64,000 bases of DNA from an uncultured Sphingomonas sp. (GTDB lineage: Bacteria; Pseudomonadota; Alphaproteobacteria; Sphingomonadales; Sphingomonadaceae). The notes under the pieces were generated by a model that worked only from the letters and a program-made list of their open reading frames with translations, ran no database searches and was not told the DNA's origin. Shown one piece after another: positions 39,688 to 43,979 of the stretch. Every line of letters begins with the position of its first letter. Position 1 is the first letter of the stretch. Location: positions 124,001-188,000 of the forward strand of contig CAJYIX010000010.1 in the NCBI GenBank assembly GCA_913775315.1, given 5' to 3'. A program made the position numbers and the translations under genes.

Positions 39688-39695
39688 CAAGAAAA

Positions 39696-39729
39696 GGCCG
39701 CGTTCCCGATCGGGAACGCGGCCTTTTTT
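39696..39729. terminator. Bidirectional intrinsic terminator
   Basis: GGCCGCGTTCCC (39696-39707) and GGGAACGCGGCC (39712-39723) form a perfect 12-bp stem, with TTTTTT after it on the plus strand and AAAA before it. It ends tatABC and also serves the minus-strand entericidin-like gene. Confidence 0.9.
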
Positions 39730-39747: not shown

Positions 39748-39873
39748 TTAGTTCGCGGCCTTCTCGACCGCGGTGCCCGCCGACTTCACGTCCTTGCCGA
39801 CGCCCTCGACGGTGTTGCACGCGCTGGTCAGCAGCGCACCCGCGACCACGGCCAGACCCAGAATCTTACGCAT
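39748..39873 (-). CDS. Entericidin-like small lipoprotein
   Basis: 41 residues starting MRKILGLAVV, with lipobox LTSAC (Cys19) and the mature sequence CNTVEGVGKDVKSAGTAV, the EcnA/EcnB pattern. GGAG lies 7 bp upstream of the chosen ATG; two other in-frame ATGs lie 6 and 12 bp further upstream. Such lipoproteins are stress- and stationary-phase-linked in enterobacteria. Here it lies at the edge of the general stress locus, with a near-consensus EcfG promoter 33-57 bp upstream. Confidence 0.88.
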   Translation of the reverse strand: MRKILGLAVVAGALLTSACNTVEGVGKDVKSAGTAVEKAAN

Positions 39874-39905
39874 CGTCATCTCCATCCTAGAACCAGTGGC
39901 ATCAA

Positions 39906-39930
39906 AATGCCGCTCGTCGATATTCGTTCC
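39906..39930 (-). promoter_or_regulatory. Near-consensus EcfG promoter upstream of the entericidin-like gene
   Basis: On the minus strand, GGAAC (39930-39926) is followed after exactly 16 bp by CATT (39909-39906); the EcfG consensus is GGAAC-N16/17-CGTT. One mismatch in the -10 element. The predicted transcript would start about 25 nt before the lipoprotein ATG. Confidence 0.5.
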
Positions 39931-39976
39931 GCGGCTGTAACCAGCGGATGGAAGACCAGGTGATGTTGGAAGGGGT

Positions 39977-40075
39977 AAGGCCCGAAAGCGTCGCCGGGGG
40001 GGGGGGAGGGTCGACGCTTCCGGGCCTCATGTCGTGGACGGTGAGAGCGGGGGGGCAAAAGGTCACCGTCCGGGT
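39977..40075 (-). ncRNA. Candidate EcfG-dependent small RNA with two C-tract hairpins
   Basis: Read on the minus strand, starting about 6-8 nt after a perfect EcfG promoter. Hairpin 1 pairs GGACGGTGA (40071-40063) with TCACCGTCC (40044-40036) and has a C7 tract in the loop. Hairpin 2 pairs AGGCCCGGAAGCGTCG (40027-40012 region) with CGACGCTTTCGGGCCT (39993-39978), 15 pairs around one A-C mismatch, with the loop ACCCTCCCCCCCCCCGG, and ends in TTACCCC. No ORF with a plausible start fits. C-rich, CCUCC-bearing loops that can mask ribosome-binding sites are known in alphaproteobacterial stress sRNAs such as Caulobacter GsrN. Size about 100 nt; ends are estimates. Confidence 0.6.
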
Positions 40076-40080
40076 TGCTG

Positions 40081-40105
40081 AACGTGCGTCCCAGCGGGGG
40101 GTTCC
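40081..40105 (-). promoter_or_regulatory. Perfect-consensus EcfG (general stress sigma) promoter
   Basis: On the minus strand GGAAC (40105-40101), 16 bp, then CGTT (40084-40081): an exact match to the GGAAC-N16-CGTT promoter recognised by EcfG-type sigma factors. It sits just downstream of the histidine-kinase stop and directly before the hairpins of the candidate small RNA, with no coding sequence in range. Confidence 0.75.
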
Positions 40106-40134
40106 GACGCCGCCCGCACACTCACGATTTTTTT

Positions 40135-41739
40135 TCAGGGACGGCCCATCACCGCGACGTTGATCTCGTAGGCGCCGCTCAGCGGGTCGTGATGGAGCGG
40201 CGCGCGAAGCTGGCGCGCAAGGCCGGCGATCACCCGGCCGTAACGCCCGGCGAGCAGCGCATCGAGCCCGTCGCCCTGGATCAGCGCGGGCGAGACGACG
40301 CGAAGGACGCCGATCCCAGGCTGGTCGGCGGGCTGGCGCAGCGAGATGCGCGCCTGCGTCTCCGGATTCGCGGTCATCGCCAGTTCGAGCAGCTCTGTGA
40401 CGAGGAAGGCGACGGCGATCGCGGTATCCTGCGACACCATCACCGGCTCGACCTCGATCGCGACGGCGAAGCGGTGCGCTCCCTCCGGCGCGCCGGCGCG
40501 GATGCCCGCGGCCAGCTCGCCGATCACCGCACGCATCTCGACCCCGCGATTCTCCTCGAGCTCGGCGAAGTGATAGCGGTGGACGACCGCGAGCGCGTCG
40601 ACGCGCCGCTGGATCGAGGCATAGGCAGCAGCCGCCTCGGGCGTGGCGGCGCCGCGCGCGTGGAAGTTGATGAGGCTGGCGATGACCTGAAGGTTGTTCT
40701 TGACCCGGTGGTGAACCTCGCGCGTCAGCTTGGTCTGGCGCACCAGACCCTCGGCGAGCCCCGCCTCGTGCGCGACGACGGTGTGGGTAATCGCGCGGAA
40801 GGTGTCGCCAAGTTGGCGGATCTCCTGCGCCGGCACCGCGCCATAGTCGACGGGGCCGAGCACCGTGCCCGGCGCATACGCGCCGACGCTGGCGCGCAGG
40901 CGGCGGAGCGGCCGGATCAGCAGGCGGTCGACGACGAACCACGCGATGGCGGCGGCGCCGATCCACATCAGGAACGGGATCAGCATCGCGACGAGCAAAG
41001 GCGAGGTGATCGGCGCGCCGCGCATCGCCATCTCGACGACCAGGCCGTCGATGCCGATCGGCGTCGCCGCGCTTTCGGTCCGCGCGAACGGGCCGGCATC
41101 GGGCAGGTCGGCCAGCGTCAGCGAGGCGTCGTCGTCGCGCAGCGCGATGCCCTTATCGGCGAGAAGGCCGCTCGGCTGCGCGATCGGGCCGAGGAAGCCG
41201 GCGGGAAAGAAGGCGGTGCCGACGACGCCCGAGCGCGGATCGGCAACGGCGAGGACGACGCCATCGGCGACGACCCGCGCGGCGATCCGGCCGGCATCCA
41301 GCCGTTCGCCGGCGATGGCGCGGTCGGCGGGCAGTGCCTCGCCGCAGAGGAGCCGGCCGGCCCGGTCGCGGATCGCGAAGCGGAGGCCCGCGGCATATTG
41401 CTGCGCAAAGATGCCGCGGGCGCGGGCGCAGGTCGCGTCGTTGCCCGGGTCGGCCGCGAGCGCGACGACGCTGGTGCGCAGCGCCGCCATGTCGCCCAGG
41501 AGTTCGGCGCCGATCGAGCGATTGCTCTCGGCCAGCGCCACGCGGAGCTGCGCGCGCACCTCCACATCGGCGATGCGTGTCGTCTGAACCGTGGCGAGGA
41601 AGGCGAGCAGCGCCAGCGGCAGCAACGCACCACCGAGAATCAGGAAGACGCGCGCGCCGGTCGGGAGCCCGGACAGCCAGCGGCGCGGTTCGACCTCGGG
41701 CGGCAGGTCCGGTTCGGATGCGGTATCGGGCGCGGTCAT
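40135..41739 (-). CDS. HisKA_2/HWE sensor kinase of the general stress response (PhyP/PhyK-like)
   Basis: 534 residues: TM helix about 30-52, an extracytoplasmic sensor region about 53-245, a second TM about 247-272, a HAMP-like linker, then the HisKA_2 dimerisation motif REVHHRVKNNLQVIASLI (phospho-acceptor His343/344). The following ATPase-like domain lacks the N-box Asn (ELLELAMTANPE at 449-460) and recognisable G-boxes. Autophosphorylation is therefore doubtful, and a phosphatase or phosphotransfer role towards PhyR, as described for PhyP in Sphingomonas, is plausible. It lies downstream of nepR on the same strand with an 87-bp gap. Confidence 0.85.
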   Translation of the reverse strand: MTAPDTASEPDLPPEVEPRRWLSGLPTGARVFLILGGALLPLALLAFLATVQTTRIADVEVRAQLRVALAESNRSIGAELLGDMAALRTSVVALAADPGNDATCARARGIFAQQYAAGLRFAIRDRAGRLLCGEALPADRAIAGERLDAGRIAARVVADGVVLAVADPRSGVVGTAFFPAGFLGPIAQPSGLLADKGIALRDDDASLTLADLPDAGPFARTESAATPIGIDGLVVEMAMRGAPITSPLLVAMLIPFLMWIGAAAIAWFVVDRLLIRPLRRLRASVGAYAPGTVLGPVDYGAVPAQEIRQLGDTFRAITHTVVAHEAGLAEGLVRQTKLTREVHHRVKNNLQVIASLINFHARGAATPEAAAAYASIQRRVDALAVVHRYHFAELEENRGVEMRAVIGELAAGIRAGAPEGAHRFAVAIEVEPVMVSQDTAIAVAFLVTELLELAMTANPETQARISLRQPADQPGIGVLRVVSPALIQGDGLDALLAGRYGRVIAGLARQLRAPLHHDPLSGAYEINVAVMGRP

Positions 41740-41826: not shown

Positions 41827-42033
41827 TCAATCGAGCTTCTTGAGCAGGTCGAGCAGGTCGTCCGGCACCGTCTCCTCCACCGCTTCGCGATAGACGGCGC
41901 GCAGCGCATCGCCGACATTCTTGTTCGCGGGCGCTGGCGGGGTCCTTGGCGGCTTCGGCGGCTGATTGTCAGAACCCACGACTTCCCCCTGCAGCCCGCC
42001 ATCCCCCGGTTTTTCGGACGACGGGTACGACAC
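41827..42033 (-). CDS. nepR: Anti-sigma factor NepR
   Basis: 68 residues from a GTG. An acidic, Pro-rich N-terminal tail precedes the NepR core VGDALRAVYREAVEETVPDDLLDLLKKLD, which forms the two helices that clamp EcfG. Phosphorylated PhyR sequesters NepR and frees the sigma factor. The exact start is uncertain (no strong ribosome-binding site). It is divergent from phyR and followed by the kinase gene, with an EcfG-like promoter 65-89 bp upstream. Confidence 0.9.
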   Translation of the reverse strand: MSYPSSEKPGDGGLQGEVVGSDNQPPKPPRTPPAPANKNVGDALRAVYREAVEETVPDDLLDLLKKLD

Positions 42034-42122: not shown

Positions 42123-42229
42123 GTGGCTTGTGGCTTTTCCGGGGAGGGGGGGATTTTGCCCGTCCGCGGCCTCACCACATCTGATTGGCCCGCCCGCCCC
42201 GGCGGACGGTGGAGGAGACTAGAATTACC

Positions 42230-43033
42230 ATGTCGCTTGGACAGCAGCTTGCCCCGCATCTTCCGTTTCTTCGCCGCTATGGCCGGGCACTGACCGGCAG
42301 CCAGGCCGAGGGGGACCGCTATGTCCGCGCGACGCTCGAGGCGATCGTCGCGGCGCCGGAGGAGTTTCCGCGCGACGTCGATCCGCGCCTCGGCCTCTAT
42401 CGCACGTTCCAGGCGATCTGGGGATCGAGCCAGATCGACGACCATGAGGCCGATCATGCCGGCGGCAGCGATCAGGAAGCGATCGCGCGCGCCCGCCTTG
42501 CCCGCATCGCGCCCTTGTCGCGTCAGGCGCTGCTGCTGACCGCGATGGAGGGGTTCACGGTCGAGGATACGGCCTATCTGATCGACGTCGACACAGCCGA
42601 GGTCGACGCGCTGGTCGCCGACGCGCTGGCCGAGATCGAGCAGCAGACGCGCGCCCGCGTGCTGGTGATCGAGGACGAGCCGATCATCGCCATGGACCTC
42701 GAGACGATCGTCCGCGACCTGGGCCACGAAGTGACCGGCGTCGCCGTGACCCGCGACGAGGCGGTGGCACTGGCGATGGAGGATCGCCCCGGCCTCGTCC
42801 TCGCCGACATCCAGCTGGCCGACGACAGTTCGGGTATCGATGCGGTCAAGGACATTCTGGCGCAGTTCAACGTGCCGGTGATCTTCATCACCGCCTTCCC
42901 CGAGCGGCTGCTGACGGGCGAGCGACCCGAGCCTACCTTCCTCATCACCAAGCCGTTCCAGCGGTCGACGGTGAAGGCGGCGATCAGCCAGGCGCTGTTC
43001 TTCGACCAATCGACGGTCCCGGCCGGCGCGTAA
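42230..43033 (+). CDS. phyR: PhyR, sigma-mimic response regulator / anti-anti-sigma factor
   Basis: 267 residues from ATG 42230, GGAGGAGA 11 bp upstream. The N-terminal sigma-like domain (about 1-135) mimics EcfG sigma-2 and sigma-4 regions. The C-terminal receiver (about 142-255) has acidic pocket EDE at 148-150, phospho-Asp193 (VLADIQL), the FITAFPERLLTGE motif characteristic of PhyR receivers, and Lys241 (TKPF). On phosphorylation it binds NepR and releases EcfG. Confidence 0.96.
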   Translation: MSLGQQLAPHLPFLRRYGRALTGSQAEGDRYVRATLEAIVAAPEEFPRDVDPRLGLYRTFQAIWGSSQIDDHEADHAGGSDQEAIARARLARIAPLSRQALLLTAMEGFTVEDTAYLIDVDTAEVDALVADALAEIEQQTRARVLVIEDEPIIAMDLETIVRDLGHEVTGVAVTRDEAVALAMEDRPGLVLADIQLADDSSGIDAVKDILAQFNVPVIFITAFPERLLTGERPEPTFLITKPFQRSTVKAAISQALFFDQSTVPAGA

Positions 43034-43227: not shown

Positions 43228-43334
43228 CCCGATTGTCCGCTTCCGATGATGCGGCGGGGATGGTCATTCCCGCCCCCACCCCTTATGTTCCAGACCGTGG
43301 CCGCGTACCGCAGGGCCCATCCGATCGGAGCTGC

Positions 43335-43979
43335 ATGTCCCAGTCTGACGAACAACAGCCGGGCGGCGAAATGCCCGAGCGCGAGCATGTCTCGCTCTCG
43401 GATCCCGAGTTCAAGGCACAGCTCACGCAGGTCATTCCGCACCTTCGCGCGTTCGGCCGCTCGCTGTCGGGCAGCCGCGATACCGCCGACGATCTGGTGC
43501 AGGAGACGCTGTTGAAAGCGTGGGCCGCGCGCAAGCGGTTCCAGGCGGGCACGAACATGCGCGCCTGGACCTTCATTATCCTGCGCAACCTCTATCTCAG
43601 CCAGATGCGCCGCGCGCGTTTCAAGGGCGAGTGGGACGATCTGGTCGCCGATCGGCTGCTCGCCGCGCCGGCCAGCCAGGATCGCCATGTGGAGCTGACC
43701 GACATGCAGCGTGCGCTGCTCCACCTGCCGCGGCCGCAGCGTGAGGCGCTGATCCTCGTCGGGGCGGGCGGGTTCGCTTATGAAGAGGCGGCCGAAATCT
43801 GTCAGGTCGCGGTCGGGACGATCAAGAGCCGGGTGGCCCGGGGCCGCGTCGCGCTCGAGAATCTGTTGACCGACGGTGCGCTGCCCAGCCGCGCGCTGCA
43901 CGATCATGGCGACAAGAGCGCGCTCGACACGATCATGGGCGAGGTCGACGAACTCAGCCGGGACCGCGGTCTGCACTGA
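43335..43979 (+). CDS. ecfG: General stress response ECF sigma factor EcfG
   Basis: 214 residues from ATG 43335 (CGGAG 4 bp before); the frame extends further upstream but lacks family-like sequence, and a second ATG 36 bp in is possible. Sigma-2 (about 32-98) has DTADDLVQETLLKAWAARKRF and MRAWTFIILRNLYLSQMRR; sigma-4 (about 122-175) has LPRPQREALILVGAGGFAYEEAAEI and VGTIKSRVARGR. This is the ECF15-type sequence. It directs RNA polymerase to GGAAC-N16/17-CGTT promoters, several of which are found in this locus. Confidence 0.95.
   Translation: MSQSDEQQPGGEMPEREHVSLSDPEFKAQLTQVIPHLRAFGRSLSGSRDTADDLVQETLLKAWAARKRFQAGTNMRAWTFIILRNLYLSQMRRARFKGEWDDLVADRLLAAPASQDRHVELTDMQRALLHLPRPQREALILVGAGGFAYEEAAEICQVAVGTIKSRVARGRVALENLLTDGALPSRALHDHGDKSALDTIMGEVDELSRDRGLH

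Follow-up and report, generated by a model that had tools for sequence, protein, structure and literature searches.

The window analyzed here, a 64,000-nucleotide stretch of DNA, contains a PhyR-NepR-EcfG general stress response (GSR) locus. On its minus strand, a histidine kinase gene with a HisKA_2/HWE_HK domain is located at 40135..41739 (PF07568, E 5.1e-17; PF07536, E 3.3e-8), and the gene for the anti-sigma factor NepR at 41827..42033 (PF18557, E 3.2e-10). The plus strand carries phyR, which encodes the anti-anti-sigma response regulator, at 42230..43033 (PF22029, E 1.9e-25; PF22233, E 1.8e-21; PF00072, E 9.4e-13), and an ECF-type sigma factor gene at 43233..43979 (PF04542, E 5.2e-14; PF22029, E 2.1e-13; PF08281, E 2.7e-13), which, judged from the locus, we take as ecfG; its start codon is uncertain, and the Pfam scan took 43332-43979. 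An entericidin-like lipoprotein gene of 41 amino acids is found at 39748..39873 of the minus strand (PF08085, E 6.1e-8), and Pfam also names TatC among the window genes. Between the kinase gene as upstream neighbor and the entericidin gene as downstream neighbor lies a predicted small RNA (sRNA) of ~100 nt, at 39972..40075 of the minus strand, which is called on the basis of fold, covariation, and homologues. Its ends are deduced, the start lying 6-9 nt past the -10 box and the end after the second of two hairpins. The entericidin gene has a separate EcfG-like promoter, GGAAC-N16-CATT, at 39906..39930 of the minus strand, in tandem behind the sRNA. Between the convergent tatC and entericidin genes, at 39692-39729, is a strong hairpin that resembles a two-way terminator (ggccgcgttcccgatcgggaacgcggcc, with runs of A and T). 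The initial annotation of this DNA placed the sRNA in the PhyR-NepR-EcfG locus, which is correct, and next to its own sigma factor, which is not: the sigma gene is ~3.1 kb away, with the kinase gene, nepR, and phyR standing between the two.

The sRNA is preceded by an EcfG-type promoter, GGAAC-N16-CGTT, read from the sequence at 40081..40105 of the minus strand, with the GGAAC box at 40105-40101, the CGTT box at 40084-40081, and a 16-nt spacer between them. Nine bases after CGTT, hairpin 1 (40036..40071) begins with a 9-bp stem, in which 40071-40063 pairs to 40044-40036, and exposes an 18-nt loop that contains a C7 run (40055-40049) and the core GCCCCCCCG. A 9-nt linker on the same strand leads to hairpin 2 (39979..40026), whose 15-bp stem (40026-40012 paired to 39993-39979) carries the loop ACCCUCCCCCCCCCCCGG. 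The initial annotation had described just this arrangement, a minus-strand GGAAC-N16-CGTT before about 100 nt with two C-loop hairpins, and both the sequence and the fold bear it out: the 120-nt piece 40079-39960 has a minimum free energy of -52.1 kcal/mol, as compared with a mean of -29.14 (sd 3) for its dinucleotide shuffles, none of 200 being as stable (z = -7.65). The stem lengths given there, 9 and 15 bp, are also right, while the mismatch assigned to the longer stem is in fact a G-U wobble (40020/39985). Hairpin 2 probably serves as the terminator stem, with a weakly U-rich tail; the 12 nt after it contain on average 5.2 T (range 2-10) in the 67 aligned members of the family described below, and the U-tail is weak in many of them, the window one included.

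The promoter string alone has to be rejected as proof of a transcription unit. GGAAC-N16/17-CGTT has a single match in the window, where shuffling leads one to expect 0.66, and at least one match turns up in 48 of 100 shuffled windows; at this chance level in a GC-rich window, the string by itself proves nothing, and the evidence for the sRNA is its conservation. It had also been stated that no open reading frame fits the element. Mechanical frames do overlap it, for example an 81-aa GTG frame at 39876-40121 of the minus strand, and what stands of the statement is that no frame is kept among relatives, since the C-runs differ by single bases from one relative to the next. With the stems covarying in addition, we reject a coding reading.

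A blastn search with 151 nt finds one copy in the genome of origin and the element in 24 of 41 relatives, made up of 24 of 25 same-genus genomes (own included) and 0 of 16 from other families; the same-genus miss, G007, is an 84% complete genome. Alignment A1 and covariance model R1 were built from 23 of the 24 blastn sequences, omitting L024, which is cut by a contig end, and at E <= 0.01 R1 finds the RNA in 81 of the 296 genomes searched from the order. Alignment A3 and model R2 comprise 67 loci, all matching R1 at E <= 1e-7, from which duplicates, fragments, and the weak matches L073-L080 were left out. At E <= 0.001, R2 has matches in 140 of 397 genomes from the order. The covariance-model search of sphingomonad genomes proposed at the outset thus recovers the two-hairpin structure in 128 of the 397 genomes, which are counted as members (E <= 2.4e-8) and belong to a single family, 51 being of the same genus and 77 of other genera. 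G223 and G263 (loci L222 and L223; ~33 bits) were added to the 128 because nepR, kinase, entericidin, and tatC surround both; the other ten weak R2 genomes are uncounted, and at least three of them (G306, G401, and G385) carry another element. Among the best 20 of the 257 genomes not matched by R2, sorted by kinship, there is one same-genus miss, G249. In a draw of 387 genomes from the class, R2 finds five at E <= 0.01, two from the same genus and three from outside the family; the latter (27.8-36 bits) were rejected, as they have neither an EcfG-like promoter nor a GSR neighbor within 3 kb. Finally, an exact-pattern scan of named genomes yields at least 120 stretches, and the 80 matches listed come from Sphingomonas, Sphingorhabdus, Stakelama, Hephaestia, Sphingosinicella, Sphingomicrobium, Parasphingopyxis, and unclassified or uncultured bacteria.

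The weak R2 matches L073, L074, L077, L078, L079, L224, and L228 do not belong to the family; inspection by eye places them behind a stop codon that ends ...VGKI. At L078:3034-3099, and similarly in the other six, a hairpin resembling a terminator, with a loop of the CUCCCCCUCCC type, comes right after the stop. The gene before it in L078 is presumably an AhpC-like peroxiredoxin, and the hairpin is perhaps part of an RNA derived from the 3'UTR, its loop being anti-Shine-Dalgarno. At L231:3054-3155, in a genome of another family, there is a two-hairpin RNA with C-run and CCUCCCCC loops and without an EcfG-like promoter, which is possibly another C-loop sRNA.

The alignments reveal a consistent pattern of covariation in both stems. 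In A1, both sides change in 9 of 24 pairs, and 98.9% of cells pair, as compared with 32-46% when the partners are slid. In A3, compensatory changes are seen in 23 of 24 pairs (177 cells versus 27.8 in shuffles), namely in 8 of the 9 pairs of hairpin 1 and in all 15 of hairpin 2, 98.0% of cells pair versus 31-45% when slid, and none of 500 shuffles reaches the observed value of any measure; these figures are to be read with the caveat that A3 was fitted to the structure and that kinship alone can lift sequences above shuffles. A1 was built without the structure, as was a MAFFT alignment of 20 diverse members, in which double changes occur in 12 of 15 predicted pairs, and sliding preserves relatedness. 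While the stem letters vary, the loop letters are conserved more. Within fixed position windows, a C-run is present near loop 1 in 66 of 67 members and near loop 2 in all 67, and CCUCC near loop 2 in 58; distant members keep the C-run as well, for example L219 and L220, where loop 1 is ATGCCCCCTCCCTGC.

The promoter is conserved as well. GGAAC with an EcfG-like -10 box is kept in 65 of the 67 members, the window one included, with a spacer of 16 in 53 and of 17 in 12. The -10 boxes are CGTT (49), GGTT (8), TGTT (5), AGTT (2), and CATT (1); of the two exceptions, L084 has GGAAC without an accepted -10 box and L065 lacks GGAAC. In the part of the Sphingopyxis granuli study drawn on here, the -10 boxes of general-stress promoters are CGTT, TGTT, CATT, and GGTT (PMC7083833). 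The initial annotation had named, among the outcomes that would refute it, a promoter and stem pairing not conserved across further sphingomonads; both are conserved.

The common gene order is phyR-nepR-kinase-RNA-entericidin-tatC. We examined 34 matches and found phyR and kinase within 3 kb on the 5' side in 14, the entericidin/tatC side only in 11 (two of these by contig ends), and neither side in 9, which are member L066 and eight weak uncounted matches. The same-locus expectation is thereby confirmed in 25 of the 34, in which the stress-response locus or its tatC side is kept. On the 5' side of L066, we see by eye a dehydrogenase-like and an amidohydrolase-like gene, which are also present in L241 and L242. 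In 18-kb stretches around the RNA in eight further-afield members, phyR, nepR, kinase, and ecfG were not found, and the RNA therefore lies away from the core locus in those genera.

The response itself extends beyond the RNA. In 19 of the best 20 of the 257 genomes without an R2 match (G042 was left out), a PhyR search gives a clear hit (E <= 2.3e-69) in 15; G076, G094, G139, and G140 show weak matches only (E 2.5e-8 or worse), which resemble ordinary receiver domains. The 15 genomes with clear PhyR indicate that the GSR can work without the RNA. A pattern scan of the stretch beyond tatC in 16 RNA-free genomes, rough in L283 and L284 owing to contig ends, shows some EcfG-like strings, none followed by C-rich hairpins, and R2 run over 32 stretches of RNA-free genomes gives one match, at 15.2 bits (E 0.071). 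In G249 (L298:3351-3427), ecfG, phyR, nepR, kinase, and tatC are in order, the kinase and tatC matches are 76 nt apart, and the gap holds neither an R2 nor an entericidin match. In this same-genus genome, the RNA and the entericidin gene were lost, or never gained, together.

We compared the element with known RNAs. Rfam 15 returns no family at gathering score in the window. In nine diverse members, no family reaches that score at the element; CRISPR repeats appear in L222 only, where six matches (RF01317) lie at 1876-2205 of the minus strand, flanking the RNA locus in this distant relative. Six sub-threshold matches (Scr3202, E 0.26; Atu_C10; mir-671; ar14; CcsR1; HTT-AS1_1) were set aside as chance or shared C-rich hairpins, and membership in CcsR1 (RF02791) was rejected, the model match being 10.5 bits versus a gathering score of 65.3. 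Membership in RF01529 was also rejected: its covariance model has no match at E <= 10 in 39940-40120 and, at E <= 0.01, finds nothing in 147 genomes from the order, among them the own genome. The RNA has no name or description in Rfam 15 or in the literature, as covered by titles and abstract starts among the matches listed, and a study of the EcfG transcriptome in S. melonis (PMC6599016) has 0 mentions of sRNA, small RNA, non-coding, GsrN, or intergenic in its main text. Judged from these genomes, the element defines a new family of structured RNAs in Sphingomonadaceae, strongly conserved and linked to an EcfG promoter.

The closest analogue is GsrN (ccna_R0081), a general stress sRNA of Caulobacter of ~106 nt that, in the sections of PMC5869019 used here, depends on a sigma factor of the EcfG type, presents a C-rich loop on its 5' side, and has an intrinsic terminator. 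Table 1 of that paper provides 50 predicted interaction sites once rows lacking a site are dropped. Loop 1 of the window RNA forms at least six contiguous Watson-Crick pairs with 24 of these 50 sites, as compared with a mean of 6.0 and a maximum of 23 for 200 shuffled loops; for the consensus loop 1, shuffles reach 26 on the same sites, so C content explains much of the pairing and the comparison is suggestive only. Loop 2 is no better than its shuffles (23 versus 19.4). For katG, the best-known GsrN target, we find no support: leaders at 15 loci, including one of the two own-genome copies, contain no conserved G-rich site by eye, and a five-G run occurs in 2 of the 15, one of them in the own genome. 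A sense-strand G-rich motif complementary to loop 2 is enriched upstream of phyR, in 24 of 96 distinct sequences versus 2.3 expected and 0 antisense; the same motif is found in 1 of 88 tatA, 0 of 28 kinase, 0 of 121 entericidin, and 0 of 17 nepR leaders. In the window, a GGGGAGGG-like G-rich motif lies at 42141-42152 on the plus strand, the sense strand of phyR. The phyR-upstream motif is clumped in related species and, by eye, seemingly sits at or above a sigma-70-like promoter with a TTGCA element. Despite the enrichment, we do not trust the phyR leader as a target, given the clustering among kin and a promoter-like position that may not be transcribed.

The proximity of the entericidin gene suggests an alternative in which the element is a structured 5' leader (attenuator) of the entericidin mRNA and not a free sRNA. 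While 58 of the 67 loci have the gene on the same strand no more than ~400 nt behind the RNA, and RNA and entericidin are jointly absent in G249, an EcfG-like (GGAAC-type) promoter stands between the two in 49 of those 58, hairpin 2 resembles a terminator, and nine loci contain the RNA with no entericidin gene found in the flank, tatC coming immediately after it in L082 and L084. The intervening promoters and the nine entericidin-free loci argue that the RNA is a unit of its own, to which a second unit of the EcfG type is often joined in tandem, and these nine loci together with the clean joint loss in G249 fit a separate gene segment. We consider a leader quite improbable. That the element consists of mere strong hairpins, terminators or DNA repeats, behind a chance promoter match is hardly credible: the expected number of promoter strings in a window would by itself allow such a match, but the reading is already contradicted by the promoter kept in nearly all members and the compensatory pairs, with the single copy in the own genome and the shared gene neighborhood also speaking against it. 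CsrB-type RNAs are decoys or sponges for CsrA, and the C tracts could similarly bind a protein instead of pairing with mRNA. The conservation of loop letters above stem letters is what a protein site would show, and the C tract is present in two copies, although we know of no candidate C-tract-binding protein. Loop 2, moreover, is CCUCC in some members and a run of C only in others, and the loops differ in length, which G-tract pairing would tolerate, and GsrN is modelled in PMC5869019, as far as its text is used here, to recognize G-rich sites through six tandem Cs. On balance, a protein decoy is unlikely.

We therefore return to the reading in which the element is an EcfG-induced, GsrN-like, trans-acting sRNA whose C loops pair with G-rich mRNA sites, to which we assign a probability of roughly 0.78. 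That the gene encodes a real regulatory RNA, much like GsrN of Caulobacter, is very probable. The analysis shows directly the sequence, the fold, the conserved promoter, the covarying stems, the kept C loops, the locus, and the range in the sampled genomes. The PhyR-NepR-EcfG cascade itself is established knowledge. Under stress, PhyR would take NepR off EcfG, and EcfG-RNA polymerase would then initiate at GGAAC-N16-CGTT to produce an RNA of ~100 nt, with hairpin 2 as its end. Both stems would act as scaffolds for single-stranded C tracts, G-C6/7-G in loop 1 and a CCUCCC-like run in loop 2, and these tracts would be the seeds for G-rich sites, mainly in Shine-Dalgarno regions and mRNA leaders. 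Through such seed pairing, the RNA could affect the translation of numerous stress-related mRNAs, or their stability, in the way of GsrN in Caulobacter. The model predicts transcription and its dependence on EcfG, the position of the 3' end, trans pairing, post-transcriptional action, and all targets. If these predictions hold, the RNA likely adds a post-transcriptional arm to the general stress response in Sphingomonas and its relatives, a large family that is common in the environment.

More tentatively, and with some doubt on our part, Sphingomonadaceae may have arrived at a GSR-coupled RNA of their own that shares no ancestry with GsrN, in which two interchangeable C-tract loops on freely drifting stems make a broad competitor for G-tracts and Shine-Dalgarno sequences that re-sets translation when EcfG is active. 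If this is true, two unrelated RNAs at the same locus would have converged on one GC6-7G seed, and the alphaproteobacterial stress switch would seem to favor such an RNA arm. The sections of PMC5869019 on which we rely report that GsrN blastn matches ended at Caulobacteraceae, that GsrN relatives are usually near the GSR locus, C. crescentus itself being an exception, and that Erythrobacter litoralis has no apparent gsrN-like gene (Figure 9 legend); the present family complements that survey, whose single named member of Sphingomonadales was the one without such a gene.

A pattern scan for an EcfG promoter with C6G is positive in 31 of 387 class genomes; two contain the window-type RNA and one is L306. 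Six of 30 fetched stretches, as well as L311, were viewed singly and the rest by neighbor search. At L306:1415-1521 of the minus strand, in a genome of another family, an RNA with an EcfG promoter and the loop GACGCCCCCCCGACTTGA lies ~0.6 kb from phyR, and it matches RF01529 'CC3552' at 101.3 bits over 1-106. Since the L306 loop is complementary to published GsrN interaction sites, the length of 106 is equal, and RF01529 matches only Caulobacter vibrioides among 14 control genomes, we infer that RF01529 is the GsrN family. In the GsrN-type RNA of L306, the C loop is embedded in a stem that is long and branched, and a GAAA loop caps the terminator, whereas the window RNA has two simple hairpins, each with a C-rich loop; R2 run without filters at the L306 RNA gives 9 bits, over positions 59-96 only. 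CcsR1 (RF02791), for which the Rfam title gives a conserved CCUCCUCCC motif, ar14 (RF02344), and Atu_C10 (RF02497) have C-rich hairpin loops like those of the window RNA, their local similarity to hairpin 2 being 10.5-13.9 bits, far under gathering scores of 58.8-65.3. The GsrN-like RNAs proposed for Rhizobiaceae, Rhodopseudomonas, and Bradyrhizobium, likened here by their description in the portions of PMC5869019 used, were likewise predicted on the strength of an EcfG site and GSR-locus proximity, and for Rhizobiaceae an exposed C-rich 5' loop is described. By its predicted features, the sphingomonad sRNA shows three of the four criteria given there for GsrN-like RNAs, among them a near-consensus EcfG site in 65 of 67 members and, in the window, proximity to the ecfG/nepR/phyR locus, and the fold together with the C-run at loop 1 in 66 of 67 members bears on the third; intergenic transcription is the fourth. 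The comparison with GsrN made by the initial annotation therefore holds as an analogy, homology by descent being a separate claim: the two RNAs share an EcfG-type promoter and a place near phyR/nepR/ecfG, as is typical of GsrN relatives, and would also share a length of ~100 nt, a separate 3' terminator hairpin, and a C tract exposed on the 5' side whose core, GCCCCCC(C)G, is deduced for GsrN.
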